Shown here: one piece after another, positions 3,649 through 20,909 of the stretch
How positions within the stretch are numbered: position 1 is the first letter of the stretch
How the letters are laid out: each line of letters begins with the position of its first letter
Origin: an uncultured Bacilli bacterium
GTDB lineage: Bacteria; Bacillota_I; Bacilli_A; RF39; UBA660
DNA: 21,072 bases
Direction: 5' to 3'
NCBI GenBank assembly: GCA_944364005.1
Contig: CALVVW010000023.1
Location: 1 to 21,072, forward strand
Notes under the pieces: generated by a model
What the model saw: the letters and a program-made list of their open reading frames with translations, nothing else
What the model was told of the DNA's origin: nothing
The model's database searches: none
Made by a program: the position numbers and the translations under genes

Positions 3649-5016
3649 TTATATATTTTTAACTAATGTTTTCTTTAAAATTCTTTCTCCATTTTTAGCA
3701 CCAGTTCCTAAAGCAGATATTTCAACTTTTGTTTCTCTTTCTAACCAGTCAAAGTATTCTCTTAAATATCTATTAAAATAATAATCCTCGAAATTACCAC
3801 GAACACCTTTAAAATCTAATCCTAAATGTTGAAAAAAATTTAAATATAAACTAGATGGAGTATTGATTTGACAATTTGTTTTTAATTTTTTTATATCTAA
3901 ATCAAATACTCTTCTCTCCATTTTTGTTACTGTCGTTTGTTCAGACTGATCAAATATAGTATTAGGCGAAAAATCACTATCTACCATTGGAAGTTCAATT
4001 AACTTTGTTTCATATTCAGATAATCCCTTAGATTTATACATTAATCGTTCTAATTCTAATGCTTCAAGTAATGTTATAGTCTCTAATTTCTTTGATTTAT
4101 AATTTTCTACAAAGACTTGTTTTAAATATATTGGAGGGCAATGGCTGATAATTTTCTTTAATCTTTTAATATTTAAATGACTAGGAAAACATTCAACATC
4201 ACCATGACAAGGATAACATCCATACATTGATGCAAGATTAATTTGCGTCCAAGTTAATTCTTCACCTTTACCATAATTTCCTGAATAAATAAATTCCCCA
4301 GATTTTGTTATATTACTTATTCTTATGGGAAAAGGTCTTATCACCATAATTGTTTGTAATAATCTCTCTGCAGAAATTCCAGAATCTGCAAGTAGTTGCA
4401 TAGTAGAAACTTCTCTACAAACGGTATTAGGATAATGCCCACTATGATTAATATCTAAATCACAACCTTGTGAACCTTCTAATATTACATATTCTAAAGG
4501 ATTTTCAAGATGTTCATATAATCTTTCATGCCATTCATCATTTGAACAAACAATAGCATTTTTAAAGGTCTTAAAAAACTCTAATTTTTTATCTTTAAGA
4601 TTTTTTTCACATGTAACAGCATTACAACCTTTAAATGTTGAACCACTCTTAATATGTTCCTTTTCATATTGTTTATGTCTCTCTTCAATTAAAGGAACCA
4701 TTTCATGAACGTAAATTTTTCTATCTCCTAGATATTTACTAGCTTGTTTATATTCATTTTTAAATACTTCCATATCAATAGCAGAACCTGGTCCTATAAA
4801 TAACTCTGTATTAGGATTAACTGATGATACTGGTATATTTCTAAAAACAGTAGCATTACCATTTTCATCTACAAAAGTATGACCTGCATTTGGCATACAA
4901 TTAGTAACAGAAGCGCCTAGATTAATTGATTTATCTGTTGCTATTTCCCCTACCACTTTAGCTTTACCACAACTGCCAGCTGCTCCATCTATTACTGATA
5001 TAACATTTTTAACCAT
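3649..5016 (-). CDS. Adenylosuccinate synthetase-like enzyme with PurZ-type Ser substitution
   Basis: 455 residues of the PurA fold, which joins aspartate to the 6-position of a purine nucleotide. The P-loop, GDEGKGK in PurA, reads GSCGKAK (14-20), so the catalytic Asp (Asp13 in E. coli) is Ser15. The same Asp-to-Ser change marks phage PurZ, which converts dGMP to the 2-aminoadenine precursor. Other PurA landmarks remain: NAGHT with His46, GST (125-127), LEGSQG (179-184), MVIRPFPIR (224-232) and EQTTVTKMERRV (359-370), a phage/archaeal-style block. The TKLD guanine-binding motif is not seen; NFFQHLGLD stands in its place, so ATP rather than GTP use is possible. It lies 21 bases after the Ppx-like gene. 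A housekeeping PurA role is less likely. Confidence 0.85.
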   Translation of the reverse strand: MVKNVISVIDGAAGSCGKAKVVGEIATDKSINLGASVTNCMPNAGHTFVDENGNATVFRNIPVSSVNPNTELFIGPGSAIDMEVFKNEYKQASKYLGDRKIYVHEMVPLIEERHKQYEKEHIKSGSTFKGCNAVTCEKNLKDKKLEFFKTFKNAIVCSNDEWHERLYEHLENPLEYVILEGSQGCDLDINHSGHYPNTVCREVSTMQLLADSGISAERLLQTIMVIRPFPIRISNITKSGEFIYSGNYGKGEELTWTQINLASMYGCYPCHGDVECFPSHLNIKRLKKIISHCPPIYLKQVFVENYKSKKLETITLLEALELERLMYKSKGLSEYETKLIELPMVDSDFSPNTIFDQSEQTTVTKMERRVFDLDIKKLKTNCQINTPSSLYLNFFQHLGLDFKGVRGNFEDYYFNRYLREYFDWLERETKVEISALGTGAKNGERILKKTLVKNI

Positions 5017-5036
5017 AACATCCCTCTAAATAAATT

Positions 5037-5933
5037 TTACTTTAAATCATTAATAACACCATTGATTAAATTTAAATCTGATGGAATAATCCATTTTACA
5101 TTTGCCATTTTAAATAATACTAAAGGTATAATGGCACCACTTCTTGCACCATCCATCCATTTAGGATTATTAGGCATTAACTCATATAATTCATCAAGGG
5201 AAATATCATAAAATACCTTTTCAGTACCTTTAATATAATCTTCTAAACTAAGCATATATTTATGAATATTATCGTCAAATAAAGTATTATCTACTAAATT
5301 AAATCCAGTTAACAATTCAAATCTTTCTTCACCACCAGTAAATATTGCACAATCATAATCTTTATCTAATTCAATATTAGATAATTTTTCTCTAACAAAT
5401 TTTTCCATCTCTTCTACAGTATCACCACTATATTTATCATTAACTTTATCAAAGTTATTTAATAAATCAGCAACACCAATAGTTAAGTTTTTTGTATCAG
5501 TTATTTTATCTCCAACAAAAGTTACTAATTCAGTAGTTTTACCACCCATGTTAATAATTAAGACTTTCTTATTATTATAATCGTTTTCCATAGCTTTGGC
5601 TAAATAATAATTTTCAATACCATGACTAATAATATTGAAATGTAAATCAAATTTTTCATTAAATAACTTAACTAAATCTTGTTTTCTTTCCTGTGTTAAA
5701 TTTCTAAATATACCAGTAACAAAAATATTTGTATTATAATACTTTAAATCATATTTAACCTTTATTTCTTCGAAATAATCACATAGTTCTTTTAAATTAT
5801 TTTGACTAATACCCTTGAAGGCATCAAAGTCATTTTTAAAATAAATAGAATGTTCTTCTATAAGTTTTAAAGTATCTTCATAACAATATACTTTAATTGT
5901 TGATGAACCAAGATCAATATAATAATTATGCAT
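5037..5933 (-). CDS. Ppx/GppA-like phosphatase of the ASKHA superfamily
   Basis: A 298-residue protein with the actin/Hsp70-like nucleotide-binding fold of exopolyphosphatase and pppGpp phosphatase. Visible in order are the phosphate-1 motif DLGSSTIKV (7-15), VTGIFRNL matching the Ppx ATSAxRDA region (72-79), HGIEN with Glu107 in the place of the catalytic Glu, the phosphate-2 motif INMGGKTTEL (127-136) and FTGGEE (198-203). The phosphate-2 Asp of DIGGGSTE is Asn here (Asn128), which may weaken hydrolysis or change the substrate. It is one domain, lacking the C-terminal HD-like domain of long Ppx. I chose the ATG at 5933 because AGGAG lies eight bases upstream. It sits between the transglutaminase-like and synthetase-like genes, with gaps of 51 and 20 bases. 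A linked role in nucleotide handling is inference. Confidence 0.8.
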   Translation of the reverse strand: MHNYYIDLGSSTIKVYCYEDTLKLIEEHSIYFKNDFDAFKGISQNNLKELCDYFEEIKVKYDLKYYNTNIFVTGIFRNLTQERKQDLVKLFNEKFDLHFNIISHGIENYYLAKAMENDYNNKKVLIINMGGKTTELVTFVGDKITDTKNLTIGVADLLNNFDKVNDKYSGDTVEEMEKFVREKLSNIELDKDYDCAIFTGGEERFELLTGFNLVDNTLFDDNIHKYMLSLEDYIKGTEKVFYDISLDELYELMPNNPKWMDGARSGAIIPLVLFKMANVKWIIPSDLNLINGVINDLK

Positions 5934-5984
5934 AATTCTCACTCCTACCTCTTATTTTAACACAAATTCAAAATAACTTAGATT

Positions 5985-7064
5985 TTATTTCATTGTTGAG
6001 CTACCACCACTTTTCACTTCCATAAACACAAAAGATTTACCGCCATCATTTTCCCAATATTTTTCTTGCTGGTAAATAGACTTTGCCATTCTTTGCTCAA
6101 ATATTTGCTGACTTTGCATAGAAGCATCAGCAAAACTTAAATGATATTGATACATAAATTCAGAAGTTTTTACATTTTTAATAGCTTGTTTTAACTCATC
6201 AGAAGCAAATGGTTGAGCAATATTATTATAATATTGATACATTACTCTATATGCACCAATTAATTGAGAATTATCAAGACCATTAAAATCAATATTTAAT
6301 CTAAAAAAAGCATTTAACTCAACTAAATTGTTTTTTAACATAGTAAAGTGACCGTTAATTATTTCTTCTTCAGTTTTTCCAGATATCATTTGTTCAATTG
6401 GCCTAACTTGACTTAATAACGAAATTGAGTGTTCAAAACTTTGCTCATCTAAAAAATTATTATAAAAAGAAGATATATCAGTTCCCAATGGAATTTGTTT
6501 ATGATAATATCGATTGATATCAGTATCATGAATTAAAAAAGCATTAAACCCTAATATATCCACTTCATTCTTAGGAGAATCAATAGTAGGATCACAATGC
6601 AAACAATGATTAAATCCATCTTTATCTTGCACAATAACTTCAAAATTCCCATGTGAACCTATAGAATTTTTATTTTCATCAAAAGTAGCTGACCTCTTAT
6701 ATAAAAAAGGAATATGATACGATTCACATAAAAAATTCATTAACTGACAATAACCTTGACAAACTCCTTTATTTGTTATTAAAGCACCAATAATATCATG
6801 ACTAGTATCCTGTTCAGCATAAACTCTATCAGCAACAAATTCATAAATCGCAACAAATAATTCCAAATTATTTAATTTTCTAGACACATTATCCTCATAT
6901 ATTACCATATTATTTAATTTATCGAAAAAACTCTTAATTTGTATAGCTGCTTTTAACAATTCTTCATCTGTATATGGAATATTAGTAGCATTATATCTAG
7001 TATAAGTCATCAATAATTTCTTTTTAATTTTTTCTAATTCAAATTGATTATTTAATTGTTCCAT
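5985..7064 (-). CDS. Transglutaminase-fold cysteine protein
   Basis: A 359-residue cytoplasmic-looking protein without signal peptide. The transglutaminase/protease-like triad is visible: Cys102 in NKGVCQGYCQLM, His139 in GSHGNFEVIVQ and Asp158 in HCDPTID, in the right order and spacing. Such domains act as cysteine proteases, amidases or transferases. Residues 30-90 form a helical N-terminal region as in bacterial members, and about 190 residues follow the core without a recognised motif. It is the first gene of the operon from the promoter at 7336-7364. The Shine-Dalgarno site is weak (GGGTGAT). Its substrate is unknown. Confidence 0.8.
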   Translation of the reverse strand: MEQLNNQFELEKIKKKLLMTYTRYNATNIPYTDEELLKAAIQIKSFFDKLNNMVIYEDNVSRKLNNLELFVAIYEFVADRVYAEQDTSHDIIGALITNKGVCQGYCQLMNFLCESYHIPFLYKRSATFDENKNSIGSHGNFEVIVQDKDGFNHCLHCDPTIDSPKNEVDILGFNAFLIHDTDINRYYHKQIPLGTDISSFYNNFLDEQSFEHSISLLSQVRPIEQMISGKTEEEIINGHFTMLKNNLVELNAFFRLNIDFNGLDNSQLIGAYRVMYQYYNNIAQPFASDELKQAIKNVKTSEFMYQYHLSFADASMQSQQIFEQRMAKSIYQQEKYWENDGGKSFVFMEVKSGGSSTMK

Positions 7065-7335
7065 TTAAAATCACCCGTACTTCATATCTATATTAACAAA
7101 TAATAAAAAATTAATATTTTCTCATCAATTTTTATCTTTAATTATATAAAACTTTTAAAAATTATCCGGCTCCGAATCTATATTCATACTTTTTTAAAAA
7201 GAAGCTTCTAATATTATAACTAAAATGACCATTAGCAATTTTTCTAAATTAAGCTCACTATTTACTAAAACAACAAAAAGAGAAAATAAAAATAAAAGTC
7301 ATCCTACTAAAATACAATTCAAATTATTTTATCAT

Positions 7336-7364
7336 ATTCTACTATTATCCTCTAACTGTGTCAA
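7336..7364 (-). promoter_or_regulatory. Sigma-A promoter of the transglutaminase-Ppx-synthetase operon
   Basis: On the minus strand TTGACA (7364-7359), a 17-base spacer and TAGAAT (7341-7336) form a near-consensus promoter. The predicted start near 7329 leaves a leader of about 265 bases before the ATG at 7064. I see no known riboswitch in it. Confidence 0.65.
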
Positions 7365-7505
7365 CGATGAAATTCTTTTGATAATCATATCTTATCATTT
7401 CTTAAAAATATCAATCTATAATATAAAATATTCCTTAGAAAAAGAACCAATTATAATTAATCAAAAGATTTAAAGTCAACTCTCATGGAAATTTAATACA
7501 TAATA

Positions 7506-7514
7506 TGATATAAT
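7506..7514 (+). promoter_or_regulatory. Extended -10 promoter of the divergent transglutaminase-like gene
   Basis: The plus strand reads TGATATAAT, an extended -10 element, about 70 bases before the ATG at 7586. Together with 7336-7364 it makes this gap a divergent promoter region. Confidence 0.45.
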
Positions 7515-7585
7515 ATAGTCTCTATAAGAACTATTACCCCAAAAAACTAAAACAACATTACTAATAAAAGAAAGCAGATGATTAT

Positions 7586-8560
7586 ATGAAAATAAAAAGA
7601 AATGATAATTCAATCATAAAAAAAAGAAAAATAAATTTTAATAATATAGAAACATATGATGAAGTTAAAGTAAAACAAGCTATTGAATATTTAAACAATG
7701 AAATTACAAATAGTATAGTATCAAATTTTGATAACATTGCTTACATATTGCAAAAAAATGACAAACCAGTAAAATTTACAACTTATAATAAAAACACAGG
7801 TTGTATTAGTTCTTGTAAAAGACTAAAGAAAAAACTTAGTAAAATTGGCTTAAAAACTTATTTTATTAGCTGCAAGGCAACTGATTTTTCGAATCAAGCT
7901 GGCAATGAATTAGTAAAAGAAGCTCATGTATTTTTACTTTACCCTTCATTAAAGAATGAAAAACTTTATTTTACAATTTTTGATCCAGGTTTTCGAGTTA
8001 CAAATACGATATCATTCTATGATGGTGAAAATTCTTTGAAATATTCCTATTTATCACAAGGAACAATGAGTGTAAAATTCGCTCCAAACAATATAGACTA
8101 CCCTTATGAATTAATAACTAATAAAAGAATAAACTACAAACATGAAATCATAGATGCTAATGTTCACTGGAATTTCAATCCGTATTATGAAACAGTAAAC
8201 ATTGATGAATATAACGAAAAACTATATTGTGCAATGTTTTCATTAAAACTAATGAATTATCCTAATGATTTAAATAAATATTTGTGCATTCGCTCAAAAA
8301 TATTAGAAAAAACAATAGAAATATATACCATTAATAAATGTAAAACATATTCTTTTAAACAATTAATAAATCTAAATCAACAAGAAATTAAAAATTTATT
8401 TAATGACTATTTTTCACAAGCCGAAATACCAAGAAAAGAATTAAATAAATTTGTGCAAAATATTTTTTTATTAATACACAATGCAGACACCTATATAAAC
8501 CAAGTAATTAATCCTTGTGTTATAAAAGAATACAATCCTGAATATAAATGGAACAAATAG
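7586..8560 (+). CDS. Second transglutaminase-fold-like protein
   Basis: A 324-residue protein, Lys/Asn-rich and without signal peptide or membrane helix. The order Cys73 (TGCISSCKRL), His114 (EAHVFLLYP) and Asp133 (FTIFDPGFRV) matches the Cys-His-Asp triad of the transglutaminase or arylamine N-acetyltransferase fold. The distance from Cys73 to the following GLK strand equals that in the protein at 5985-7064. Cys77 could be an alternative nucleophile. The C-terminal 190 residues are unassigned. It is monocistronic, with an extended -10 box upstream and a terminator at 8582-8617. The ribosome binding site is poor. Function is unknown; the fold assignment rests on motif order only. Confidence 0.65.
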   Translation: MKIKRNDNSIIKKRKINFNNIETYDEVKVKQAIEYLNNEITNSIVSNFDNIAYILQKNDKPVKFTTYNKNTGCISSCKRLKKKLSKIGLKTYFISCKATDFSNQAGNELVKEAHVFLLYPSLKNEKLYFTIFDPGFRVTNTISFYDGENSLKYSYLSQGTMSVKFAPNNIDYPYELITNKRINYKHEIIDANVHWNFNPYYETVNIDEYNEKLYCAMFSLKLMNYPNDLNKYLCIRSKILEKTIEIYTINKCKTYSFKQLINLNQQEIKNLFNDYFSQAEIPRKELNKFVQNIFLLIHNADTYINQVINPCVIKEYNPEYKWNK

Positions 8561-8581
8561 AGTTTTTCAAATGTTTAAAAA

Positions 8582-8617
8582 GTATCCTCTCATTAAAAAA
8601 AGGATACTTTTATATTG
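8582..8617. terminator. Bidirectional intrinsic terminator between convergent genes
   Basis: AAAGTATCC and GGATACTTT pair around a loop of about 14 bases, with T-rich DNA on both sides. It can end the plus-strand gene stopping at 8560 and the minus-strand operon ending at 8668. Confidence 0.75.
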
Positions 8618-8667
8618 AGCTAACAAATACTATTTTCTTATCTGATATAAACAAATATCTAAAATGT

Positions 8668-9681
8668 CTAATTTTCTAAGATCCAGGATTGAAAATATTT
8701 GATTTTTGTATGACAATATTCACAATATCCCTTAGTAACATCAATAGAAGCACCACAATTATGACATTTAATAATATTTACACCTTCCCTTAACTTTAAG
8801 ATATCATCATTAATTCTTTTTAATGTATAAAGTTCATCAACAAACTTTGAAGTTATTTTATTATTTTCAAAAGTCACAATTCTAACATTTGCTTTAACAT
8901 TAACAAACAAATTACCATCTTTAATATATTCTTGAAATTCTATAAAATCAATAATGTCATAATCAATAATATTAGTAGATTCATAATATTTATTTCTGAT
9001 CTCATAATTGAAATTATTAAAAAACGTTTTTTTATCAATTTTACTTCTATTCCAAAAATCAATTTGTTTTTGATTTTGTTTATCCTTATATTTTTTTATA
9101 GGTCCTAATATAACATAACCATCCACAATATAAAAGAAATAATATAAGATTAATGCTAATATAATTCCATATATAAATATTTTAGAAATATCATATACAT
9201 TAAAGGTCCTAGAAGTAAATTTAATAAAAACAAAAGCTAATAATAAACTAATAAGCAAGTCAACAACAGCAGTAATAACTCTATAAACATTATTTTTAAG
9301 AATTAAATCGTAATGATATTTTCCACCTAAATCTTTATCTGTATAATCAATATTATAATATGTCTTACAATAAGGACAGCCATCTATAAATTCTTTTAAT
9401 TTTGCATGCATTCCACAATTAGGACATGTATAATCCTGTTCTTGTTGGCCTTCCGAAATAAATGTATATTCTATCCTAGAATCAAATAATTTCTCAATAT
9501 GTATTAATTTATGATTAACATAATATTGCTTTTCACATCTAATTCCATTTTTTATATCATCATTATGGCTATTATCTGTATTTCGTTCTAAAATTTTGTT
9601 TCCAACAATATATTTAGTTTTAATATTAATATTAAACTTCTGTAACTTTTTTAAGTGTAAATTATCTGAAATTAATGGCAT
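8668..9681 (-). CDS. Membrane protein with two zinc ribbons, Tim44-like middle
   Basis: A 337-residue protein. Zinc ribbon 1 has Cys86-x2-Cys89 and Cys102-x2-Cys105; two membrane helices follow at about 134-154 and 164-190; a polar domain at about 205-300 resembles Tim44-like domains (a weak call); zinc ribbon 2 has Cys306-x2-Cys309 and Cys320-x2-Cys323 close to the C-terminus. The N-terminal 80 residues are beta-like and unassigned. It is the last gene of the radical SAM operon, starting 11 bases after the Asn-rich protein. Its role could be scaffolding or membrane handling of the modified product, but this is inference. Confidence 0.75.
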   Translation of the reverse strand: MPLISDNLHLKKLQKFNINIKTKYIVGNKILERNTDNSHNDDIKNGIRCEKQYYVNHKLIHIEKLFDSRIEYTFISEGQQEQDYTCPNCGMHAKLKEFIDGCPYCKTYYNIDYTDKDLGGKYHYDLILKNNVYRVITAVVDLLISLLLAFVFIKFTSRTFNVYDISKIFIYGIILALILYYFFYIVDGYVILGPIKKYKDKQNQKQIDFWNRSKIDKKTFFNNFNYEIRNKYYESTNIIDYDIIDFIEFQEYIKDGNLFVNVKANVRIVTFENNKITSKFVDELYTLKRINDDILKLREGVNIIKCHNCGASIDVTKGYCEYCHTKIKYFQSWILEN

Positions 9682-9692
9682 AGTATCATATC

Positions 9693-10052
9693 CTATCTAT
9701 TGTTATTATTGTTATTATTATTGTTATTATTATTTGATGAAGAACCACCACTATAACCACTTGAAGAAGAGGGTGTATAATGTGGTATTATATTAAATAA
9801 TGTATTAGATAACACAATGCCATCAATTGCAGAACTGATACATTTAGAAGTAATAATAGTAGCATTAGCAAGATTATCATCTATTACTAAAGAAATAGAA
9901 TCTTTCCCCGCTCTAACTTGACCCTTAGGATTACTCTCTAAAAAATTATATATTTGTTCTAAATCTGCTTGTGATAATTCATAATACTTTGTCAAATCAA
10001 TACATCTTTTTTTCCTAATTAATTCTTCATAAGTTTCTGGCTCTTTATTCAT
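9693..10052 (-). CDS. 119-residue protein with Ser/Gly and poly-Asn tail, candidate RiPP precursor
   Basis: This gene overlaps the end of the radical SAM gene by 8 bases, and its AAGGAG site lies inside that gene, so the two are translationally coupled. Residues 1-91 form a leader-like region with charged helices and single Cys at 17 and 71. Residues 92-106 are YTPSSSSGYSGGSSS, followed by twelve Asn and a final Arg. The Asn run is coded by a mixed AAT/AAC triplet tract. Small size, two-part structure and tight coupling to a SPASM enzyme fit a peptide substrate whose tail is modified. It could instead be a partner subunit with a disordered tail. No cleavage site such as GG is certain. Confidence 0.75.
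   Translation of the reverse strand: MNKEPETYEELIRKKRCIDLTKYYELSQADLEQIYNFLESNPKGQVRAGKDSISLVIDDNLANATIITSKCISSAIDGIVLSNTLFNIIPHYTPSSSSGYSGGSSSNNNNNNNNNNNNR
9696..9734 (-). repeat. AAT/AAC triplet tract coding poly-Asn
   Basis: Twelve consecutive Asn codons (nine AAT, three AAC) lie just before the AGA and TAG that end the small gene. Slippage here would change the tail length in whole residues without shifting the frame. Confidence 0.7.
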
Positions 10053-11796
10053 TGTTTAACTCCTTATCTATATAATAAAATTCAATATTTTGAAATGGTA
10101 AATTAATTGCTTGTATATGATAATATGCATTATTTTTTTGCTTCACATAATGATAATCTCTTAAAGCAGAAGTAGTAAAAAATAAATTATTATAATTTTC
10201 ATTAGAATACATATATTTATATTCTTTAATAAGATTAGAAATATCATATTTATAAAATCCTTCTTTATCTGATTTTATATTATCTAGCACTCCTTTATAA
10301 ATTTGATGCGTACAAATATGTCTTTGTTTTGTTCTATTTTCATCACCATACGTAACTAAATCACCAGTTAATAACATAATATATAAAGAATTATTTTCAG
10401 GATATTCACACACTTCATTTATTAAACTTTTCTTCATATAAATAACTATCGTTGATTTAGGTGTAAAATAAACAATATCTCTTGTTTTCTTTATTATTTG
10501 AGATTCTAAGTTATATAATTGATTATCTACTTTTAAAATAAACGAACTATCATCATAAATATATTTTAAATTTTTATCATGCACGATTAGTTCTTCAAGT
10601 AACGGATAATCATTAACAGCCTTTTTATTTGGAATGTATTTACTAATATCTTCTAATCGCATCTTAGCCACATATTCATAAACAAACTCGTCATTAAATT
10701 CATCTTTAGGATAATTTCTATCTTGATACATCACTTGTTGTAATTTACAAGTATAACTTTTATTAGATTTATAATTATTTTTAACAAAAGGACATCCTGT
10801 TTTACATAAGTATAAATATCCGCATTTTCCACATTCCTCATTAAATGATTCTTTATTATGATTTTTAAATATTTTGCTATAAGCGGTATTCATAATTTCT
10901 TCAACACTATTTTGATATATATTACCATAATAATAATCAGGATTTTTTTGACCTCTAACACAAGAATAAATATCCCCATTTTTTTCTAATAAAAAAAACT
11001 TTTCACCACAATTATCACAGTTAGAGCAATATTCTGGTCCAAATTCATCAAACCACGGACCATTTACACCATAATCCAAATCTGTTCCATCAAATTCTTG
11101 ATGCATTCTGTTATAAAACTCTACTTGCTCATCTTCACTCATATGATGAAGAATACCATTAGAATTATAATCAAAACCAATCATAAAATTAAAATCATTC
11201 ATATCTAGACATGTATTTTTATGTAAATATTTTATATCTTCAATAATTTCATCTATATGATTATAATGCTCTTTAAAAATTGTAGAAGATACTTTCTTTT
11301 TATTAGGAATATCTTCAAGTAATTTTATATTTTTAAATATTTTCTCTAAAGTTTTTTGATTTCCTTTCGTTATTCTATATTCATCATGAAGTGACAATGG
11401 TAAATCTAAACTTCCTGATATAGAAACATTAAATTCTCGAATAGTATCAATATGTTTATCTATACTATATAAATTTGTTTTGATATGTGGTCTTCCTATT
11501 TTAAAACCAGCATTCATAATAAGTTCTTTATTTTGTTCATAATAGTCACTAATATATCTTATTAAATCATAAAAATCATCATGTGATAAAGTAGTTACCT
11601 CTCCTCCATGTAAGGATATATTAAAAGGAATTACATTGGAACTCTTCATCTTGTCTATAGCATATTTTAAAGTATCAAGAGCTTTCATGTTATGATATTC
11701 ATCTTTAGTATTATCCTCTAGATAACAATATCTACAAGCCATATTACAAGCCATGGTTGGAACATATAATAAATGTATGAATTTATTTACTTTCAC
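10045..11796 (-). CDS. Radical SAM/SPASM peptide-modifying enzyme
   Basis: 583 residues. The radical SAM cluster motif is Cys17-x3-Cys21-x2-Cys24 (ACNMACRYCYL) and the SAM-binding GGE-type motif is HGGEV (63-67). A SPASM domain follows, with Cys257, 260, 263, 279, 322, 325, 331, 335 and 350, enough for two auxiliary iron-sulfur clusters. This layout is that of sulfatase-maturase-like enzymes and RiPP maturases that make carbon-carbon, thioether or similar bonds in peptides. Residues about 360-583 form an extra domain I cannot assign. The start is GTG at 11796 with AGGGGG seven bases upstream. The adjacent small Asn-tailed protein is the likely substrate; no sulfatase is nearby. Confidence 0.9.
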   Translation of the reverse strand: MKVNKFIHLLYVPTMACNMACRYCYLEDNTKDEYHNMKALDTLKYAIDKMKSSNVIPFNISLHGGEVTTLSHDDFYDLIRYISDYYEQNKELIMNAGFKIGRPHIKTNLYSIDKHIDTIREFNVSISGSLDLPLSLHDEYRITKGNQKTLEKIFKNIKLLEDIPNKKKVSSTIFKEHYNHIDEIIEDIKYLHKNTCLDMNDFNFMIGFDYNSNGILHHMSEDEQVEFYNRMHQEFDGTDLDYGVNGPWFDEFGPEYCSNCDNCGEKFFLLEKNGDIYSCVRGQKNPDYYYGNIYQNSVEEIMNTAYSKIFKNHNKESFNEECGKCGYLYLCKTGCPFVKNNYKSNKSYTCKLQQVMYQDRNYPKDEFNDEFVYEYVAKMRLEDISKYIPNKKAVNDYPLLEELIVHDKNLKYIYDDSSFILKVDNQLYNLESQIIKKTRDIVYFTPKSTIVIYMKKSLINEVCEYPENNSLYIMLLTGDLVTYGDENRTKQRHICTHQIYKGVLDNIKSDKEGFYKYDISNLIKEYKYMYSNENYNNLFFTTSALRDYHYVKQKNNAYYHIQAINLPFQNIEFYYIDKELNNE

Positions 11797-11807: not shown

Positions 11808-13457
11808 CTAATAGTTTGAATTATAATATTCATCATATAAATCAAAATAATTGATTGATGTAGGACTTTCTTTAAATGCCCGTTCATTAACATATACATC
11901 ACTTGGAATAGTTATGCTATATAAACTCGTACATTGTCTAAAAGCAGATGAGCCTATTTCTCTTAATTTACTATTTTCTGTAAATAATACTTCAGATAAT
12001 AATGTATCCCCATAAAAAGCATGACCACCAATTCTAGTAACCCTATCTGGAATTTCAATGCTCCTTAATGACGTACAATATTCAAAAGAATCTCCTCTAA
12101 TTTCCGTTAAATTTTCTGATAATTTTATTTTAGATAAAGAAGATGCACCATAAAAAACCTCTCCTCCCATATATGTTAATGTATCAGGCAATTCTATACT
12201 AGTAATAGATGAACAATTATAAAAAGCTCCACCACCTAAATATTCTAAATTTATTGGAATATTAACACTTCTCAAACTACTATCATTTTTAAAAGCTTGA
12301 CCTCTAATTTCGGTAATTGTATTAGGAAGCGTTACGCTTTCTAAAAAAGGCATGTTTGAAAATGTATTTCCCCTAAGACTAACTACCTTTTGACCATTAT
12401 ATTTTGCAGGAATAGAAGCTGTTTTGAAATTAGTTAAACCAAATGTATAAAACCTAACTGCATATCCACCTTCTACTTTTTCATACATAATTCTAGGGTT
12501 AATAAAAATAATCAGAGGTAATATGCAAGCAATGATAATAGATAGTATTCTTAACACTTTCAAATTATCAGATATAAATGAATTTTTAACATTCATAACT
12601 ATATTTGATATTTTCTCACTTGGTCTTGCTTTTACTTCTTTTTTTAGATAGCTCATTAAATTATATTTTATTGTAATTCTAAAAAAGCAAAACAAAATAA
12701 TAAATCCAACAACATAAGTATATATTGGAAAATGAAAAAATATTAAAGAAATATAGACAAAAACCAATACAGAAAAAATGATAGTTAATATATTTTTTCT
12801 TTTTAAAATATCAGCAGGATATAATTTATTATTTTGTTCAATTCCATTCCGTTTTAATTCTCTATTTATAAATTCTTCTAATAATTTATCCTCAGTATTA
12901 TTAAACATAGGATCAAAATCTGAATAATGAACTAAAACCTTAGATGCTGCTGCAGTAGATACTTTATTTTGAACAACAGATACACCACAGTTAGAACAAA
13001 ACTTATCTCCAACATTAATTACTTCTCCACAGTTAGAACAGTGTAATATATTTTCTTGATTATTTTGTGATGACATATTTTCTAATATAGTATTTACATT
13101 AAGAATATCAATTTGACCCTTATTTCTTTTTATTGTTATAAGTTTTGCGATAGGAACAATTATAAATGCCCCAATAAAAACTGCAAAAAAATCTATGAAA
13201 GCTATTTCCGTTGTAATAAAGAAATCAAAAAATAAAAGTACAATTGCTCTAATAATAAATAATGTCAAAAAAACCTTTTTATAATTATCCTTAGAAAAAA
13301 TTTTTGATAAGGGAAGTAATACAAAAATAGACATATGAATAGAAACAAAAGCCTCCATAACAAGAGCAACAATGATAGGTGTAGAATTATCACCAGAGCT
13401 TGCAAACACTAACATAGGAAAGAAAAAGATACTAACCATCAATAAATATTTTTTCAT
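11808..13457 (-). CDS. Membrane protein with zinc ribbon and BspA-type leucine-rich repeats
   Basis: 549 residues from the ATG at 13457, which has GAGGTG five bases upstream; an in-frame ATG four codons earlier lacks this. A signal-like hydrophobic start (4-20) is followed by helices at about 27-51, 61-81 and 85-108, a zinc ribbon (CSNC...CSNC, about 140-159), helices at 222-241, 244-260 and 301-321, then seven to eight repeats of about 23 residues of the LRR_5/BspA type (about 350-541, with AF and SLxSIxIP features). It is the first gene of the operon and ends 11 bases before the radical SAM gene. The repeats suggest protein binding. The second zinc-ribbon membrane protein of the operon makes a pair. 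Confidence 0.85.
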   Translation of the reverse strand: MKKYLLMVSIFFFPMLVFASSGDNSTPIIVALVMEAFVSIHMSIFVLLPLSKIFSKDNYKKVFLTLFIIRAIVLLFFDFFITTEIAFIDFFAVFIGAFIIVPIAKLITIKRNKGQIDILNVNTILENMSSQNNQENILHCSNCGEVINVGDKFCSNCGVSVVQNKVSTAAASKVLVHYSDFDPMFNNTEDKLLEEFINRELKRNGIEQNNKLYPADILKRKNILTIIFSVLVFVYISLIFFHFPIYTYVVGFIILFCFFRITIKYNLMSYLKKEVKARPSEKISNIVMNVKNSFISDNLKVLRILSIIIACILPLIIFINPRIMYEKVEGGYAVRFYTFGLTNFKTASIPAKYNGQKVVSLRGNTFSNMPFLESVTLPNTITEIRGQAFKNDSSLRSVNIPINLEYLGGGAFYNCSSITSIELPDTLTYMGGEVFYGASSLSKIKLSENLTEIRGDSFEYCTSLRSIEIPDRVTRIGGHAFYGDTLLSEVLFTENSKLREIGSSAFRQCTSLYSITIPSDVYVNERAFKESPTSINYFDLYDEYYNSNY

Positions 13458-13501
13458 ATCACACCTCATACCACTCGAACTCTTAATATCATATTTAAAT
13501 C

Positions 13502-15765: not shown

Positions 15766-16680
15766 CTATTCAAAAACACGTTCTAACCAATTAGCTACTC
15801 CTTCTGTCCAATCTCCTCCAATACCAAATCCATGTGGATAATTATCTAAAACACGAACTTCAATATCTTTATTTAAATCCTGTAATAAATCCACCTGCGC
15901 GTTAAATTGATTATAGAAAGGATCTTCCATACCATAAACATAATAAGTAGGAGATAAATCAACATCTCGAAAGGTATCTTCATCTAAATCAGCAATAGAA
16001 AGTCTTCCGTAGAAAGAATATCCCATGATTACTGCATTTGGTGTAGAAGAAGTTCTATCGATTTTATCAGGTTGATAATTATTATCTATTGCAGTACCGT
16101 TAGTTTTTTCATTAAACTCTAATACTGCATGTCCATTAGCAATACCACCTGCCGAAAATCCAACTAACCCTATATGGTTTTCCTGAAATCCATACTCATC
16201 TGCTCTACTTCTTACATATTTTACTGCTCTAGCAATATCAATTCCTGATTCTTCTTCCGTATAAGGATCTACTCTATAATGAACTACAAACGATACATAA
16301 CCAAGTCTCGCAAACTCTTTTGCAACATTAACTCCCTCTTGTATTTCAGAAGGAAACAAAAATGCTCCTCCAGGACTTACTAACATTGCTCCTTTTACTT
16401 CTGTTCCTTCTGGTACATCATAAACCGTCATAAAAGGGCGAAAATCAGGATCATCAAAATAATTACCATCATTTTCCTTATATTCTATTTCAACTGGCAT
16501 ATTACCTTCATCCCAAATATAAATCATATCACTACTATCCACATCTTCTCTTTGTTCTCCACTATAATAATCATAAACATTTACATCATCTTGAGAATTA
16601 TTGCTAAAAACAAAACTGCACAAAATAATAATGAATAATACAAGAGATAGAACTAAAATGATAATTGTTCTTTTATTCAT
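15766..16680 (-). CDS. Membrane-anchored alpha/beta-hydrolase (esterase), intact
   Basis: 304 residues. A single N-terminal anchor (5-26) places the enzyme outside the membrane. The hydrolase shows the oxyanion region SPGGAF (102-107), nucleophile Ser176 in GFSAGG, Asp253 in GMEDPF and His283 in YPHGFG, all expected for BD-FAE-type or acetyl esterases acting on ester side groups. The start codon overlaps the end of the broken flavodoxin gene by 8 bases, so the two were one unit. It resembles the broken esterase at 19479-20483 in the anchor, the YIW motif and PHGFG, so they are paralogues. The substrate is not known. Confidence 0.85.
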   Translation of the reverse strand: MNKRTIIILVLSLVLFIIILCSFVFSNNSQDDVNVYDYYSGEQREDVDSSDMIYIWDEGNMPVEIEYKENDGNYFDDPDFRPFMTVYDVPEGTEVKGAMLVSPGGAFLFPSEIQEGVNVAKEFARLGYVSFVVHYRVDPYTEEESGIDIARAVKYVRSRADEYGFQENHIGLVGFSAGGIANGHAVLEFNEKTNGTAIDNNYQPDKIDRTSSTPNAVIMGYSFYGRLSIADLDEDTFRDVDLSPTYYVYGMEDPFYNQFNAQVDLLQDLNKDIEVRVLDNYPHGFGIGGDWTEGVANWLERVFE

Positions 16681-17164
16681 TAAAGCCTAAATCCTCTAAC
16701 CAGTTTCTAACAGTATCTGTCTAATCACTATCCATATCTCCACCACGAATAGCAAGGCCATCTAACACAGTAGCATCACTTTCCATTTCAGCAATATCCT
16801 GATAAGTTTCACCATCTCCAGAACCTTCATGAATATTAAAGGGAATAATTATCTTACCTTTTAAATCTACATTTTTAATAAATGTTCTAATAATTTGTGG
16901 ATAAGTATACCACCACATCGGATATCCAATAAAGATATTGTCATACTTAGTAACATCTGGATAATTTTTTATTTCCGGAAGAATATGTTTATCTCTTTCT
17001 TTTTTGTAAAATCTGCAAGTTCTTCATAATGACTCATATCTTTATCATAAGAAACAACAGGTTCTATTTCAAATAAATCCCCCGCCTACTACTTCCTGTA
17101 TCTCTTTTGCAAACTTCTTTGTTGTTCCATAGCAACTAAAATATACGATCAATATCTTAGACGT
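16673..17164 (-). pseudogene. Flavodoxin pseudogene with four lesions
   Basis: A short-chain flavodoxin is readable: SKILIVYFSCYGTTKKFA (FMN phosphate loop), GYPMWWYTYPQIIRTF, GLAIRGGDMDSD and TVRNWLEDLGFNE at the C-terminus. The start codon is ACG at 17164, eight bases after GGAG, where ATG is expected. One extra G in a five-G run near 17078 and one missing A in an A run near 17005 shift the frame out and back. A TAG at 16721 stands where a Gln would fit. Each lesion alone would abolish or truncate the product. It is divergent from the TetR gene and lay in one unit with the esterase. Confidence 0.8.
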
Positions 17165-17190
17165 ACTATCATCTCCTTTCTTAATTATGC

Positions 17191-17226
17191 ACACGTGTTG
17201 CTTAATTTTTACAATTAAATTATAAT
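17191..17226 (+). promoter_or_regulatory. TetR gene promoter with palindromic operator candidate
   Basis: TTGCTT (17198-17203), a 17-base spacer and TATAAT (17221-17226) form a plus-strand promoter. The palindrome ACACGTGT (17191-17198) touches the -35 box and also lies in the leader of the divergent flavodoxin gene, a place where the regulator could repress both. Confidence 0.45.
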
Positions 17227-17314
17227 AAGAATAAATAGACTTTGACACCACGAATCAAAAAATATGAGAAATAATTCACACATCAAAAAAATTTGTGTAA
17301 AAGGAAATGATATT

Positions 17315-17866
17315 TTGCCTGATACAGACTTAAGAGTTCAAAGAACGAAAAAATTATTAAAAGAACAATTTAAAGAAATGTTTTTAGAGATGGATTATGA
17401 AAAAATTACCATTAAAGAATTATGTGAAAGAGCTATGATTAACAGAAGAACTTTTTATCTACATTATAATTCTATCGATGATATCTTAAATGAAGTCTTA
17501 GATGAGATGGCACATGACTTTTTAGAATATACAAAAGACTATGATCATTTTTTAAATCCCAAAAGAATTGTAAAAGATTATTTTCTTTTTACTAGTAGTA
17601 GTCCACTTTTTGAAAAGTTAAATAATAGTGTTGATTATAATTATTTAAGAGAAAGTATAAATACTAGAGTACGTGATATTGCGAAAGATAATTTTAGTAG
17701 TGTTTATAAATTTGATAAGTTTAAAATTATGATGATGACTTATTTAAATTCAGCTACTGTAAATATGTACCATGTCTGGTGTTTAAATGGGAATGCAGTT
17801 CCAATTGAAGAAGCAATTGAAATTGCTGGTAACTTAATAGAAAATGGATTAAAAAATAGTATATAA
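17315..17866 (+). CDS. TetR/AcrR-family transcriptional regulator
   Basis: About 183 residues from a TTG at 17315, nine bases after AAAAGGAA; an in-frame ATG at 17264 gives 200 residues but has no ribosome binding site. The family's N-terminal helix-turn-helix is clear: RTKKLLKEQFKEMFLE, then ITIKELCERAMINRRTFYLHY and IDDILNEV. The C-terminal ligand domain is variable as usual. It faces the flavodoxin/esterase unit, with a shared gap of about 150 bases, so it probably represses that unit and perhaps the related esterase/flavoprotein genes at 18.5-21 kb. The inducer is unknown. Confidence 0.85.
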   Translation: MPDTDLRVQRTKKLLKEQFKEMFLEMDYEKITIKELCERAMINRRTFYLHYNSIDDILNEVLDEMAHDFLEYTKDYDHFLNPKRIVKDYFLFTSSSPLFEKLNNSVDYNYLRESINTRVRDIAKDNFSSVYKFDKFKIMMMTYLNSATVNMYHVWCLNGNAVPIEEAIEIAGNLIENGLKNSI

Positions 17867-17868
17867 AT

Positions 17869-17897
17869 TTGACAAAACTCACCTTTAGAAGTATAAT
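17869..17897 (+). promoter_or_regulatory. Consensus sigma-A promoter
   Basis: TTGACA (17869-17874), a 17-base spacer and TATAAT (17892-17897) match the consensus perfectly, 30 bases before the ATG at 17927. It suggests strong constitutive transcription of the following gene. Confidence 0.8.
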
Positions 17898-17926
17898 ATA
17901 CCACTATAAAAAGGAAGGAATTTTAT

Positions 17927-18541
17927 ATGATAAGTTTTGAAAAGAAATTAGATGAATATAAAACTAGATTAGCAAATAATGCAGAACTTGCAATTATAAC
18001 AATAGAAAATGCGAAAACTCCAGAGATTCAGAGAATATTAATATCGCCATCAAATGAAGAAGAATTGGAATATGCCAATACAATGTTAACAATAAATCAA
18101 GATATGAAGACACTAACTGAATATGCTTCAAATGGTAAATTTAAAGGTATAGATTTTAAAAACTCTATTATCAAAAAATTCACAAAAGCTTTATATGATA
18201 AAATAAAGGATTCTGATTTATCTAATCCAATTGATTTATCTGATATGAATATGGATGAAGAAACATTTGTTACCTTGACGTATGAGATAATGATAGTATC
18301 AATAACAGATTCTGGTGACTTAGAGAATTATCTATGCGAATTATCTCAAAATAATCCTTTAGATCAATTAAAATTCCTAATAGGATTTAATCAAAGTATT
18401 TCACCACTTAAACCAAGTACAGATAATTCAGAAAATACTAAAAACATTATGGACAAAGTTCATGTCTTATTTCAAAAAGAAATAGCTAATCTTCAAGATG
18501 AAAATAATACTACTGATACAAGAAAAACTCACATCAAATAA
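17927..18541 (+). CDS. Hypothetical soluble helical protein
   Basis: 204 residues, no signal peptide or membrane helix, mostly charged and probably helical, with many Asp, Glu, Asn and Lys. I do not recognise a family. The gene has a perfect-consensus promoter (17869-17897), a strong AAGGAAGGA ribosome binding site and a terminator whose left arm lies in its last codons, so it is a well-expressed single-gene unit. It lies between the TetR gene and a run of broken esterase genes but need not be related to them. Confidence 0.7.
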   Translation: MISFEKKLDEYKTRLANNAELAIITIENAKTPEIQRILISPSNEEELEYANTMLTINQDMKTLTEYASNGKFKGIDFKNSIIKKFTKALYDKIKDSDLSNPIDLSDMNMDEETFVTLTYEIMIVSITDSGDLENYLCELSQNNPLDQLKFLIGFNQSISPLKPSTDNSENTKNIMDKVHVLFQKEIANLQDENNTTDTRKTHIK

Positions 18542-18558
18542 AGTGAGTTTTTTATTTT
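18526..18558. terminator. Bidirectional intrinsic terminator
   Basis: AAAACTCAC and GTGAGTTTT pair around a loop of about ten bases, followed by T/A-rich DNA in both directions. The left arm overlaps the end of the gene stopping at 18541; the other strand serves the esterase pseudogene ending at 18552. Confidence 0.75.
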
Positions 18559-19377
18559 GTAAGTAACCATTTCATAACATCTGCTTCCCGAGCCACCTCT
18601 TCTCCACCAGCATGTTGGGAAGTATATCCATGGCTAATAAAATGATCTTCATCTCGCACATCTAATATTAAAATATCATCGATTTGTTTCTCGGTTAATC
18701 CCTTCCTCAAGTATCGATTATAAAGTTCTTGATAAGTTTCTTTAAAATTAGCAGATCCATAATAATCATCTTCTTCTCCAATAAAGAAGTAAAGAGGAAG
18801 TTCTTCATCTACTACATCATCATAACCAGCATCCCACTCGCTACTAACCATTAAAGCGCCATCATAAAGATTCGCATTTTTATCTAAAACTAAAGATAAT
18901 GTCTCTCCTCCTCCTGAGTATCCCTCAATATAAGTTCTATCAACAGAATAATTTTTTTGATAATATTTTGTTAAAGCAATCGTATCTTCTGTAGATTGCT
19001 CTCCCCAGTCATCTAACTGAGGAGCGAATATAATCATATTTTTATTGATATCTCGGGCAGTAAAAGCAAAATCTTCATACTCTAGATTCACACCTACTCC
19101 TTGAAAGTATAATCCTTCCCATCCTGGTAAAGTAATAAACATAGAAACAGAATCTAATTCATCTATATTTTCTGGAATATAAGCACTATAGTGAATGTCT
19201 CGACCTTCTTCACTAGTAAATACCACATCGATTTGAAAATCATCTTCTATCGTATTTGATTCTTTTACTATCTCTGTTCTTTTTTCACTATCTTCTTTAG
19301 AAAAGAAACTTATCGTAAAAGAAACAACGATTCCAATAATGATAAGTATCGCAATTAAAATAAGTATTATTCTTCAT
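18552..19377 (-). pseudogene. Esterase (alpha/beta-hydrolase) with frameshift at codon 2
   Basis: AAGGAG lies seven bases before the ATG at 19377, but this ATG is out of frame with the rest. Restoring one A in the second codon gives MKRIILILIAILIIIGIVV, a perfect membrane anchor, and an open frame to 18552 (about 275 residues). The hydrolase core is complete: GYSGGG with the nucleophile Ser, FIGEEDDYY with the acid and DEDHFISHG with the His, as in PHB-depolymerase-like esterases. Internal GTG starts such as 19226 would lack the anchor and any ribosome binding site. A real one-base deletion or a sequencing error are both possible. Confidence 0.7.
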
Positions 19378-19407
19378 ATCATGTCTCCTTTCTTTTTTTA
19401 TACTATA

Positions 19408-19441
19408 AAAAAGAAGATAAGCCTACCACGTTTATCTTCTT
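19408..19441 (-). terminator. Intrinsic terminator after the esterase pseudogene
   Basis: AAAAGAAGATAA and TTATCTTCTTTT form a long perfect stem around a loop of about ten bases, with T-rich sequence after it on the minus strand. It ends the unit containing 19479-20909. Confidence 0.75.
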
Positions 19442-19478
19442 TTAGGGAAATAATTCTCATTTTTCATCTTTTTGTGAA

Positions 19479-20483
19479 CTATGACATATGCTCTTCCCAA
19501 AACTCTACGGCATGATTAATCCAACCTTCTGCTTTAGTACCGACTCCAAGACCAAATCCATGAGGGAGTCCGTCAAAGACTTCTATCTCCGCATCAGTTC
19601 CATCTTCTTTAATTCTTTCTATTCTATCTTCCATAACTCTATAATCAGCAATGCCATCACTAGTACCTACACAACTATAAGTAGGCACTTCGTCTCCAGT
19701 TACTTCACTAAGTCCTGTATATTAAATAATAGCTGCTGCTGGTCTAGGATAAGCTTTTTCTCCAAAACTTTCTGTACCATAACTGGAAATCCAAGCAGTC
19801 ATTCTACCTCCAGCAGAACCTCCCCAAACAGAATAATGAGAGATATCTATTTTTAATTCTTCTTTATGTTCATGAAGAAAAGCAATATCTCTTGCTAAAT
19901 CTTCCAGCGCAGTGTCTGATCCTGGTCGATAAATTAAAGAAAAAGCATTATATCCCATTTTCGATAAAGCTAAAGCATGAGGAAAACTATCTTGCATAGC
20001 TCCTACATACATAAATCCACCACCAGCATTAACAACTGCCGTTTTCGCATTCTCTTCTCCTCGAAAGAAGAACAATCCCGTATTTCTTTTATCAGGATTT
20101 CCCCTCATTTCTTCCTCACTATAAATTGGATAAAAAACTTGATTACCAGAATCAGCATCTTCTTTCAAAGAATTCACAATATCTACTGTAGTATCATCAT
20201 CTATATAGTTATACCAGATATAAATATCATCAATATCATCTAATCTAGTATCTCCATCAATTGGTCTATCGACTGGAAAAATTAAATTACCAAACCCTTC
20301 GAAAGATGCATTATTTATAACATCAGAGATAGTTGAAGATTTCGTAAAAGTTTTAATATGATTTACTTCATTAGAAGATGTATTTTGATTAAAATATATA
20401 AAGAATCCATATCCACCTATAAAAATCACCACCATTAAAATTATAAGTCCTAGTATTATTTTTGTATTTTGTAAAGATGTCAT
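19479..20483 (-). pseudogene. Membrane-anchored esterase interrupted by TAA
   Basis: From the ATG at 20483 (AGGTG upstream) 253 codons run to a TAA at 19722, and the same frame then continues to 19479. The reading resumes as YTGLSEVTG, so a CAA to TAA change (Gln) is the simplest cause. The parts form one hydrolase of about 334 residues: anchor 8-29, oxyanion region NAGGGF (152-157), nucleophile Ser223 in GGSAGG before the stop, the acid in GTSDG and the His in LPHGFG after it. The stop removes two of three catalytic residues. It is a paralogue of the intact esterase at 15766-16680. Confidence 0.8.
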
Positions 20484-20495
20484 ACATCACCTCTA

Positions 20496-20909
20496 CTAGA
20501 TTATCATTGTATTTACCATTTCCATAAGATAGCATAGCCGAGTTGCAAGATATGTGATAGAGTTTTCTGTATCTTCACTAAGTGCAGAACCTTGAGCAAA
20601 TAAATATAGCTTTTTTCCTTTTAATATTTTAACTTCATCTAACATATACAAGCGATCAATAAATGTTTTTAAAAGACCTCCTACAGTATACCAGTAAACT
20701 GGTGCACCAATAACTAAGGTATCAGCTTCCTTTATTTTTTCAAACACCTCACTTATTTGGTCATCTTCAAATACTTGACCATATTGAGAAATCTTATAAT
20801 CAACCATTTGTAATATTTTGTAATCTTTATTTCTTAATAACGCTTCTCCTATTCTATAAGTATTTCCCTTTTTATTAGGACTAAAGTTCATAAATAAAAT
20901 CTTATTCAT
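20496..20909 (-). CDS. NAD(P)H-dependent FMN reductase, C-terminally short
   Basis: 137 residues of the flavodoxin-like NADPH:FMN reductase family. The FMN phosphate loop is NFSPNKKGNT (8-17) and the PVYWYTVGGLLKTFIDR block (95-111) matches the family's second flavin contact. Relatives run to about 170 residues; here the frame stops after EMVNTMII, and the next gene starts 13 bases later, so the last strand and helix are missing. A deletion joining the two genes or a stop mutation could explain it, and the product may be non-functional. The start has GGAG with good spacing. Confidence 0.65.
   Translation of the reverse strand: MNKILFMNFSPNKKGNTYRIGEALLRNKDYKILQMVDYKISQYGQVFEDDQISEVFEKIKEADTLVIGAPVYWYTVGGLLKTFIDRLYMLDEVKILKGKKLYLFAQGSALSEDTENSITYLATRLCYLMEMVNTMII

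Follow-up and report, generated by a model that had tools for sequence, protein, structure and literature searches.

A radical SAM/SPASM enzyme paired with an asparagine-tailed protein in gut Bacillota and with asparagine-tagged tail fibres in Campylobacter Mu-like phages

The contig CALVVW010000023.1 of an uncultured Bacilli bacterium (GenBank assembly GCA_944364005.1), analysed over its whole stretch of 21,072 nucleotides (the window), contains a four-gene cassette on the minus strand in which a putative radical S-adenosylmethionine (SAM)/SPASM maturase adjoins a small protein with a poly-asparagine end. The first gene (11808–13469) encodes a 553-residue membrane protein with a zinc-ribbon-like stretch, whose Pfam matches lie below cut-off, and a BspA-type leucine-rich repeat (LRR) domain. 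It is followed by the gene of the 583-residue maturase (10045–11796, GTG start), which is assigned from Pfam and NCBIfam profiles and a fold match, and by that of the 119-residue partner protein (9693–10052), which is supported by its open reading frame (ORF) and its homologues. The fourth gene (8668–9681) encodes a 337-residue membrane protein with zinc-ribbon-like cysteine motifs at both ends, again below the Pfam cut-offs. The two central ORFs lie where the initial annotation had placed them and overlap by 8 bases (10045–10052).

The small protein begins with a domain (residues 1–92; 9777–10052) that is predicted to fold into a compact alpha/beta structure of two helices and five strands with a predicted local distance difference test (pLDDT) score of about 95. 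A structure search with this prediction gave no convincing match to a solved fold, and the protein has no family match in Pfam or NCBIfam at E ≤ 0.001. The tail is predicted to be disordered. It consists of a Ser/Gly linker, SSSSGYSGGSSS (residues 95–106; 9735–9770), of which the GGSSS part is conserved, and a poly-Asn tag of 12 mixed AAT and AAC codons (residues 107–118; 9699–9734), followed by Arg. The end of the protein is therefore as first described, ...HYTPSSSSGYSGGSSS with 12 Asn and Arg.

The enzyme has the cysteine pattern of the radical SAM/SPASM superfamily: a CxxxCxxC motif at residues 17–24 provides the radical SAM cluster cysteines C17, C21 and C24, and the SPASM cysteines are C257, C263, C279, C322, C325, C331, C335 and C350. 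The radical SAM (PF04055) and SPASM (PF13186) families both score above their Pfam cut-offs, and the SPASM model TIGR04085 reaches 43.3 against a cut-off of 27. All eight SPASM cysteines are invariant in the cassette enzymes and in the phage enzymes described below, while C260 is not, which suggests two fully ligated auxiliary clusters. Two such clusters are found in the anaerobic sulfatase maturase (anSME). This is also the best NCBIfam match of the enzyme (TIGR03942, 95.7 bits), although the score is far from the curated cut-off of 349.45, and anSMEcpe is the best fold match.

The last ~230 residues of the window enzyme have no Pfam match, in agreement with the unassigned C-terminus reported before. 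This orphan domain (residues 353–583; 10048–10740) carries the conserved motifs YG[DE]ExRxKxxH and RxYHYxKxxxNAxYHxxxxNLPFxxxEF. Its earlier suggested role in binding the leader, as the N-terminal part of the small protein was then read, is unlikely to be its only one, because the domain is common to the Campylobacter phage enzyme, whose loci (1128 ORFs) gave no homologue of the leader.

A search for the small protein gave 167 homologues. Tail counts were made on the 120 that were listed, the window protein and 24 locus copies (145 in total); co-occurrence was judged in the named genomes and loci. The named relatives include a Bacilli metagenome-assembled genome (MAG), a Clostridia MAG and Clostridium sp. 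CAG:465. A run of at least five Asn is present in 140 of the 145 copies, and uncut locus copies have 9–16 Asn, usually followed by Arg. Among 139 unique sequences the run is preceded by the pattern S-G-G-S-S-S (positions -6 to -1: S 113, G 108, G 124, S 108, S 127, S 125), position -1 is Ser or Thr in 133 (S 125, T 8) and the final residue is Arg in 107. Tail aromatics are not conserved, with Tyr at -7 in only 50 of the 139. The window protein has no Cys in its tail, and over the 14 positions that precede the run Cys never ranks with the six most frequent residues.

The run exceeds what chance would give. When 21 genomes with the cassette were scanned for eight Asn codons in a row, 17 had no match beyond the small gene. 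Of these, 16 matched in the small gene alone, including G050, where the run found on the contig that carries the next cassette gene was taken as the other half of a broken tail; G396 had no match at all, its small gene being cut by a contig edge. Further runs occur elsewhere in G216, G353, G368 and G428, but in none of the seven readable ORFs concerned does the run end the protein (L111 yielded no ORF). Likewise, none of 274 other ORFs of at least 100 residues around the cassettes has an Asn run longer than five. Four contigs (L045, L056, L057 and L058) break inside the poly-Asn run; the small protein is therefore probably truncated in some deposited entries.

The codons of the run point to selection for the amino acids and avoidance of triplet slippage, because AAT and AAC are mixed beyond random expectation: the longest single-codon run in the tail is shorter than in shuffled sequences (3.04 against 4.29). 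AAC makes up 99 of 283 tail Asn codons, compared with 335 of 2723 other Asn codons of the cassette genes.

The small protein was matched in 21 of 386 genomes of the family, one match being spurious (G156, with 28 of 94 positions and no cassette gene in its locus L054) and left out, as were weak matches in long ORFs (7 of 7 in one search; G294, G430 and a second place in G376 in another). The enzyme was found at E ≤ 1e-100 in 19 genomes, all among the other 20; in the twentieth (G268) it is cut off by a contig edge, so that the pair co-occurs in 20 of 20. A comparison of gene families across 25 loci, omitting L053 (same contig as L006), the spurious L054 and L057 (a second copy of the L047 genome), found only four that recur in more than three: the small protein (25), the enzyme (23), the LRR protein (23) and the zinc-ribbon-like protein (19). 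LemA is one of three further families that are found in exactly three loci each. Contig edges account for 7 of 10 gaps in the cassette. The zinc-ribbon-like gene is present in 18 of 21 cassette genomes and truly absent from three (G187, G216 and G263); 19 other genomes gave no strong match to it and one weak match (E 4e-4). Thus the enzyme and the Asn-tailed protein, first paired from the window alone, form a fixed pair in the genomes examined, are not found apart except at contig edges, and the copies keep the tail. Neither tail-less homologues nor small proteins without the enzyme, the findings that were to count against the pairing, came up in these genomes.

Some cassette loci also have LemA and DUF2207 genes. 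Two of the three genomes without the zinc-ribbon-like gene have a LemA-DUF2207 pair upstream of the LRR gene, in L050 (G187; 7201–9361) and in L006/L053 (G263; L006:125–2283). In the third (G216), a LemA fragment lies past the small gene, where the contig of L049 ends. No Ser/Gly tail is present on the DUF2207 proteins of L050 and L006, whereas that of L043 (region 3930–6480) has one, as if the tail had moved from DUF2207 to a separate small protein.

Within the small protein, the leader and the tail are conserved to very different degrees. Among 24 cassette copies the leader is on average 39% identical (minimum 18%), compared with 71% for the five residues before the first Asn. In 52 pairs with leader identity below 30%, 84% was kept over ten residues around the first Asn, five of which are Asn by construction. 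A model built from the leader of a divergent branch alone found two unseen genomes, and each of them has the complete cassette as well as the tail. What the system keeps is therefore the tail and not the leader.

When phage and plasmid collections were searched with the enzyme, a single full-length match came from each. The phage match is Campylobacter phage CAM-P21; the plasmid match is a Campylobacter coli record that carries an almost identical prophage region. The phage enzyme is 34.5% identical over residues 9–578, orphan C-terminal domain included. The PHROG family phrog_1802 covers the window and phage enzymes over nearly their whole length (residues 11–575 of the window enzyme against 48–551 of 556, E 2.3e-39), as expected of full-length homologues. 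In these Mu-like phages the radical SAM gene belongs to the tail operon, where it follows the genes for the tail fibre and for a 211-residue protein (phrog_10241), and the CAM-P21-type fibre ends SGSTNNNNY.

Relatives of this phage were gathered by way of the adjoining tail protein I, a route that does not depend on the enzyme, and loci found through the enzyme were added. Of 41 loci, 36 were classified, five having no anchor gene (L159, L161, L186, L187, L188). Loci L138–L141, L143–L153 and L157 were not counted: all duplicate contigs already included, save L139/L150, a separate contig whose fibre also ends STNNNNY. Two loci are from Helicobacter, the others from Campylobacter Mu-like phages. 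With enzyme presence judged within the locus stretch, the fibre ends with an NN tag in 13 of 13 enzyme-bearing loci (L136, L137, L142, L154–L156, L158, L160, L162, L169, L180, L184, L185) and in 0 of 23 enzyme-less loci (L163–L168, L170–L179, L181–L183, L189–L192). The tagged ends are STNNNNY, ATNNNNY, SSNNNNY, SSGNNF, STGNNF, SMGNNF, SMGNNS and CNNNNN. Counting distinct ends (10 with and 13 without the enzyme), Fisher's test gives P = 9e-7, a value overstated by the relatedness of the phages. In a separate reading of ten loci, the fibre end was shown for nine, all with an NN tag, and the tenth (L147) was read as L155. As background, 575 other ORFs have NN in the last six residues five times and NNNN in the last eight not once. 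The fibres have common stalk repeats and, judged by eye, about four tip types over their last 60 residues, with the tag constant.

Phage and cassette were compared with phmmer at E ≤ 1e-3. Six phage queries (enzyme, 211-residue protein, tail protein I, DUF1353, sheath and DUF4376-type protein) against 688 cassette-locus ORFs, and five window queries (enzyme, leader, both membrane proteins and the gene at 7586–8560) against 1128 phage-locus ORFs, gave matches for the enzyme only. A profile comparison of the 211-residue protein with the leader domain gave a probability of about 1%. Because no other query protein matches across the loci, the enzyme with its orphan domain and the Asn-rich end are the common denominators of the two systems.

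The simplest account of the co-occurrence, of the conserved tag and enzyme, and of the correlated presence and absence in phages is that the enzyme is probably a tag-directed radical SAM/SPASM maturase, and we infer that its substrate would be the C-terminal Asn-rich tag rather than a conventional peptide core. The tag would consist of a linker with Ser or Thr and then a row of Asn that reaches the C-terminus or stops just short of it. In gut Bacillota it would be carried by a small folded protein that is probably translationally coupled with the enzyme, and the two membrane proteins beside it may house or display the tagged protein; in Campylobacter Mu-like phages a similar tag would sit on the tip of the tail fibre. 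The enzyme would bind the flexible tag, generate a 5'-deoxyadenosyl radical and abstract hydrogen from residues of the tag. These would most likely be Asn, attacked probably more than once along the run, and the outcome would be either oxidised Asn (dehydro or cross-linked) or epimerised Asn, with the two auxiliary clusters handling the electron. As to the product, we can only guess: Asn C-beta oxidation or a cross-link is the first possibility, Asn epimerisation a more doubtful one, and oxidation of Ser/Thr to a formylglycine-like residue or some other product are each rather unlikely. The biological use might be a stabilised, sticky or receptor-contacting surface tip on the phage fibre and on the membrane-associated protein, which is likewise a guess.

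Several observations weigh against the tag being the substrate. In the phages, the fibre end, the 211-residue gene and the enzyme are exchanged as a block, with a DUF4376-type gene taking the place of the latter two in enzyme-less loci, and the tag could therefore serve the 211-residue protein; on the other hand, the cassette loci, where enzyme and tag persist, have no homologue of that protein. Only two Asn are present in 4 of the 13 enzyme-bearing phage loci (GNNF, GNNS). All ten distinct phage ends have Ser or Thr at most three residues before the first Asn, and Ser/Thr could be the target. In L169 (9024–10816; same contig as L157:6968–8760) the enzyme gene is split between frames, yet the fibre has retained its SMGNNF end. 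Close relatedness among the phage loci leaves few independent events, and absence of the enzyme was judged from the locus stretch. Finally, 5 of the 145 small-protein copies have no run: P0028 and P0093 are short, P0076 is short with a different end, P0109 has a changed end after NNN, and the L047 copy stops after FSGSSS, although a stretch coding for eight Asn directly follows.

The alternative that fares best, although we consider it unlikely, makes the enzyme a diverged sulfatase maturase. It would oxidise Ser or Thr of the tag to an aldehyde, which could form imines with surfaces, and the Asn run would be only a flexible handle. The best-matched studied enzymes do oxidise Ser or Cys, both the TIGR03942 profile and the anSMEcpe fold point in this direction, and Ser/Thr precedes the run in the phage ends and nearly all small proteins. 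However, the profile score is far under the family cut-off, the C/S-x-P-x-R substrate motif of sulfatase maturases is absent from the small protein, and no Ser position is more constant than the Asn run.

Improbable, too, is the reading of the initial annotation, in which the small protein is the precursor of a classical ribosomally synthesized and post-translationally modified peptide (RiPP), with a core SSSNNN...R that would be modified, cleaved after GG and exported. Its small size, the gene overlap, the adjoining SPASM enzyme and the GG before the SSSN part in most copies would fit. The homologue comparison, however, showed the reverse of a conserved leader and a variable core: the core is constant, and the leader, a predicted folded domain, diverges. 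Since no further gene family recurs in more than 3 of the 25 loci, there is no dedicated protease or transporter, and the phage relative adjoins a structural tail fibre. Particular RiPP classes were also considered. Sactipeptides and ranthipeptides have Cys in the modified part, which the tail lacks; cyclophane maturases (GrrM/OscB, YhhB, AmcB, DynA) act on a conserved aromatic in a three-residue motif, and their models score below cut-off here.

We give still less credence to a passive solubility or adhesive tail, with the enzyme modifying the folded domain or a membrane protein. The DUF2207 protein of L043 has its Ser/Gly-rich tail with no such radical enzyme adjacent, the cassette lying about 3 kilobases away. 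Against this, the folded domain diverges strongly while the enzyme keeps 59–93% identity, and phage and cassette, as far as compared, have only tag and enzyme in common. That the run is a slippage-prone repeat or assembly artefact, as the simple AAT repeats and the four contigs broken inside it might suggest, is hardly credible and already contradicted by codon mixing in excess of random and by the run keeping its frame and its C-terminal place in genomes from 18 genera.

Elsewhere in the window, a cluster of esterase-like (PF20434, Peptidase_S9) and flavodoxin/FMN (flavin mononucleotide)-reductase-like ORFs, several of them short or in pieces, lies at 15766–20909 and includes a TetR regulator (17264–17866). 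At 3649–5942, a 455-residue protein that resembles adenylosuccinate synthetase in its N-terminal part only (E 2e-18) adjoins a Ppx/GppA-like protein.

Our data raise the possibility, which on balance we favour, that a new radical SAM maturase family (SPASM with the orphan domain) recognises and modifies a portable poly-Asn tag at the C-terminus of unrelated carriers. These would be a protein of the membrane cassette in gut Bacillota and, in phages, the tail fibre with its receptor-facing tip. The prediction is that the enzyme and a short Asn tag form a two-component system that chemically changes protein ends in bacteria and phages. If true, a homopolymer tail modified by radical chemistry and a phage tail fibre modified by a radical SAM enzyme would both, to our knowledge, be firsts, with no such report met in the open-access literature consulted. 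It would also explain radical SAM genes within phage tail operons, and a tag that can be transferred would offer a way to bring radical chemistry to chosen proteins. The case also shows that poly-Asn, readily set aside as low-complexity sequence and interrupted in some of the assemblies, can have a function.

Among known systems, anSME (TIGR03942; anSMEcpe, 4k37/4k39) resembles the window enzyme in its radical SAM and SPASM fold and acts on a residue within a protein segment. In contrast, the window enzyme has the extra orphan C-terminal domain, and the cassette contains no sulfatase. The RiPP radical SAM/SPASM maturases (DynA, DarE, GrrM/OscB, YhhB, AmcB, PapB) belong to the same enzyme class and have a substrate encoded next door, but all their models score below cut-off for the window enzyme, and the tail differs from their substrates in having no conserved aromatic or Cys and no variable core. 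The polytheonamide-type epimerase/methyltransferase RiPPs have Asn-rich cores modified by radical SAM enzymes, with a leader and enzyme architecture different from the cassette's. The phrog_1802 protein of CAM-P21 differs from the cassette in its carrier, a tail fibre separated from the enzyme by the 211-residue gene instead of a small protein adjoining it, and in its tag, with 2–5 Asn usually followed by Tyr or Phe instead of 9–16 Asn and usually Arg. Nevertheless, it has the same full-length architecture as the window enzyme, and its partner fibre is likewise Asn-tagged.
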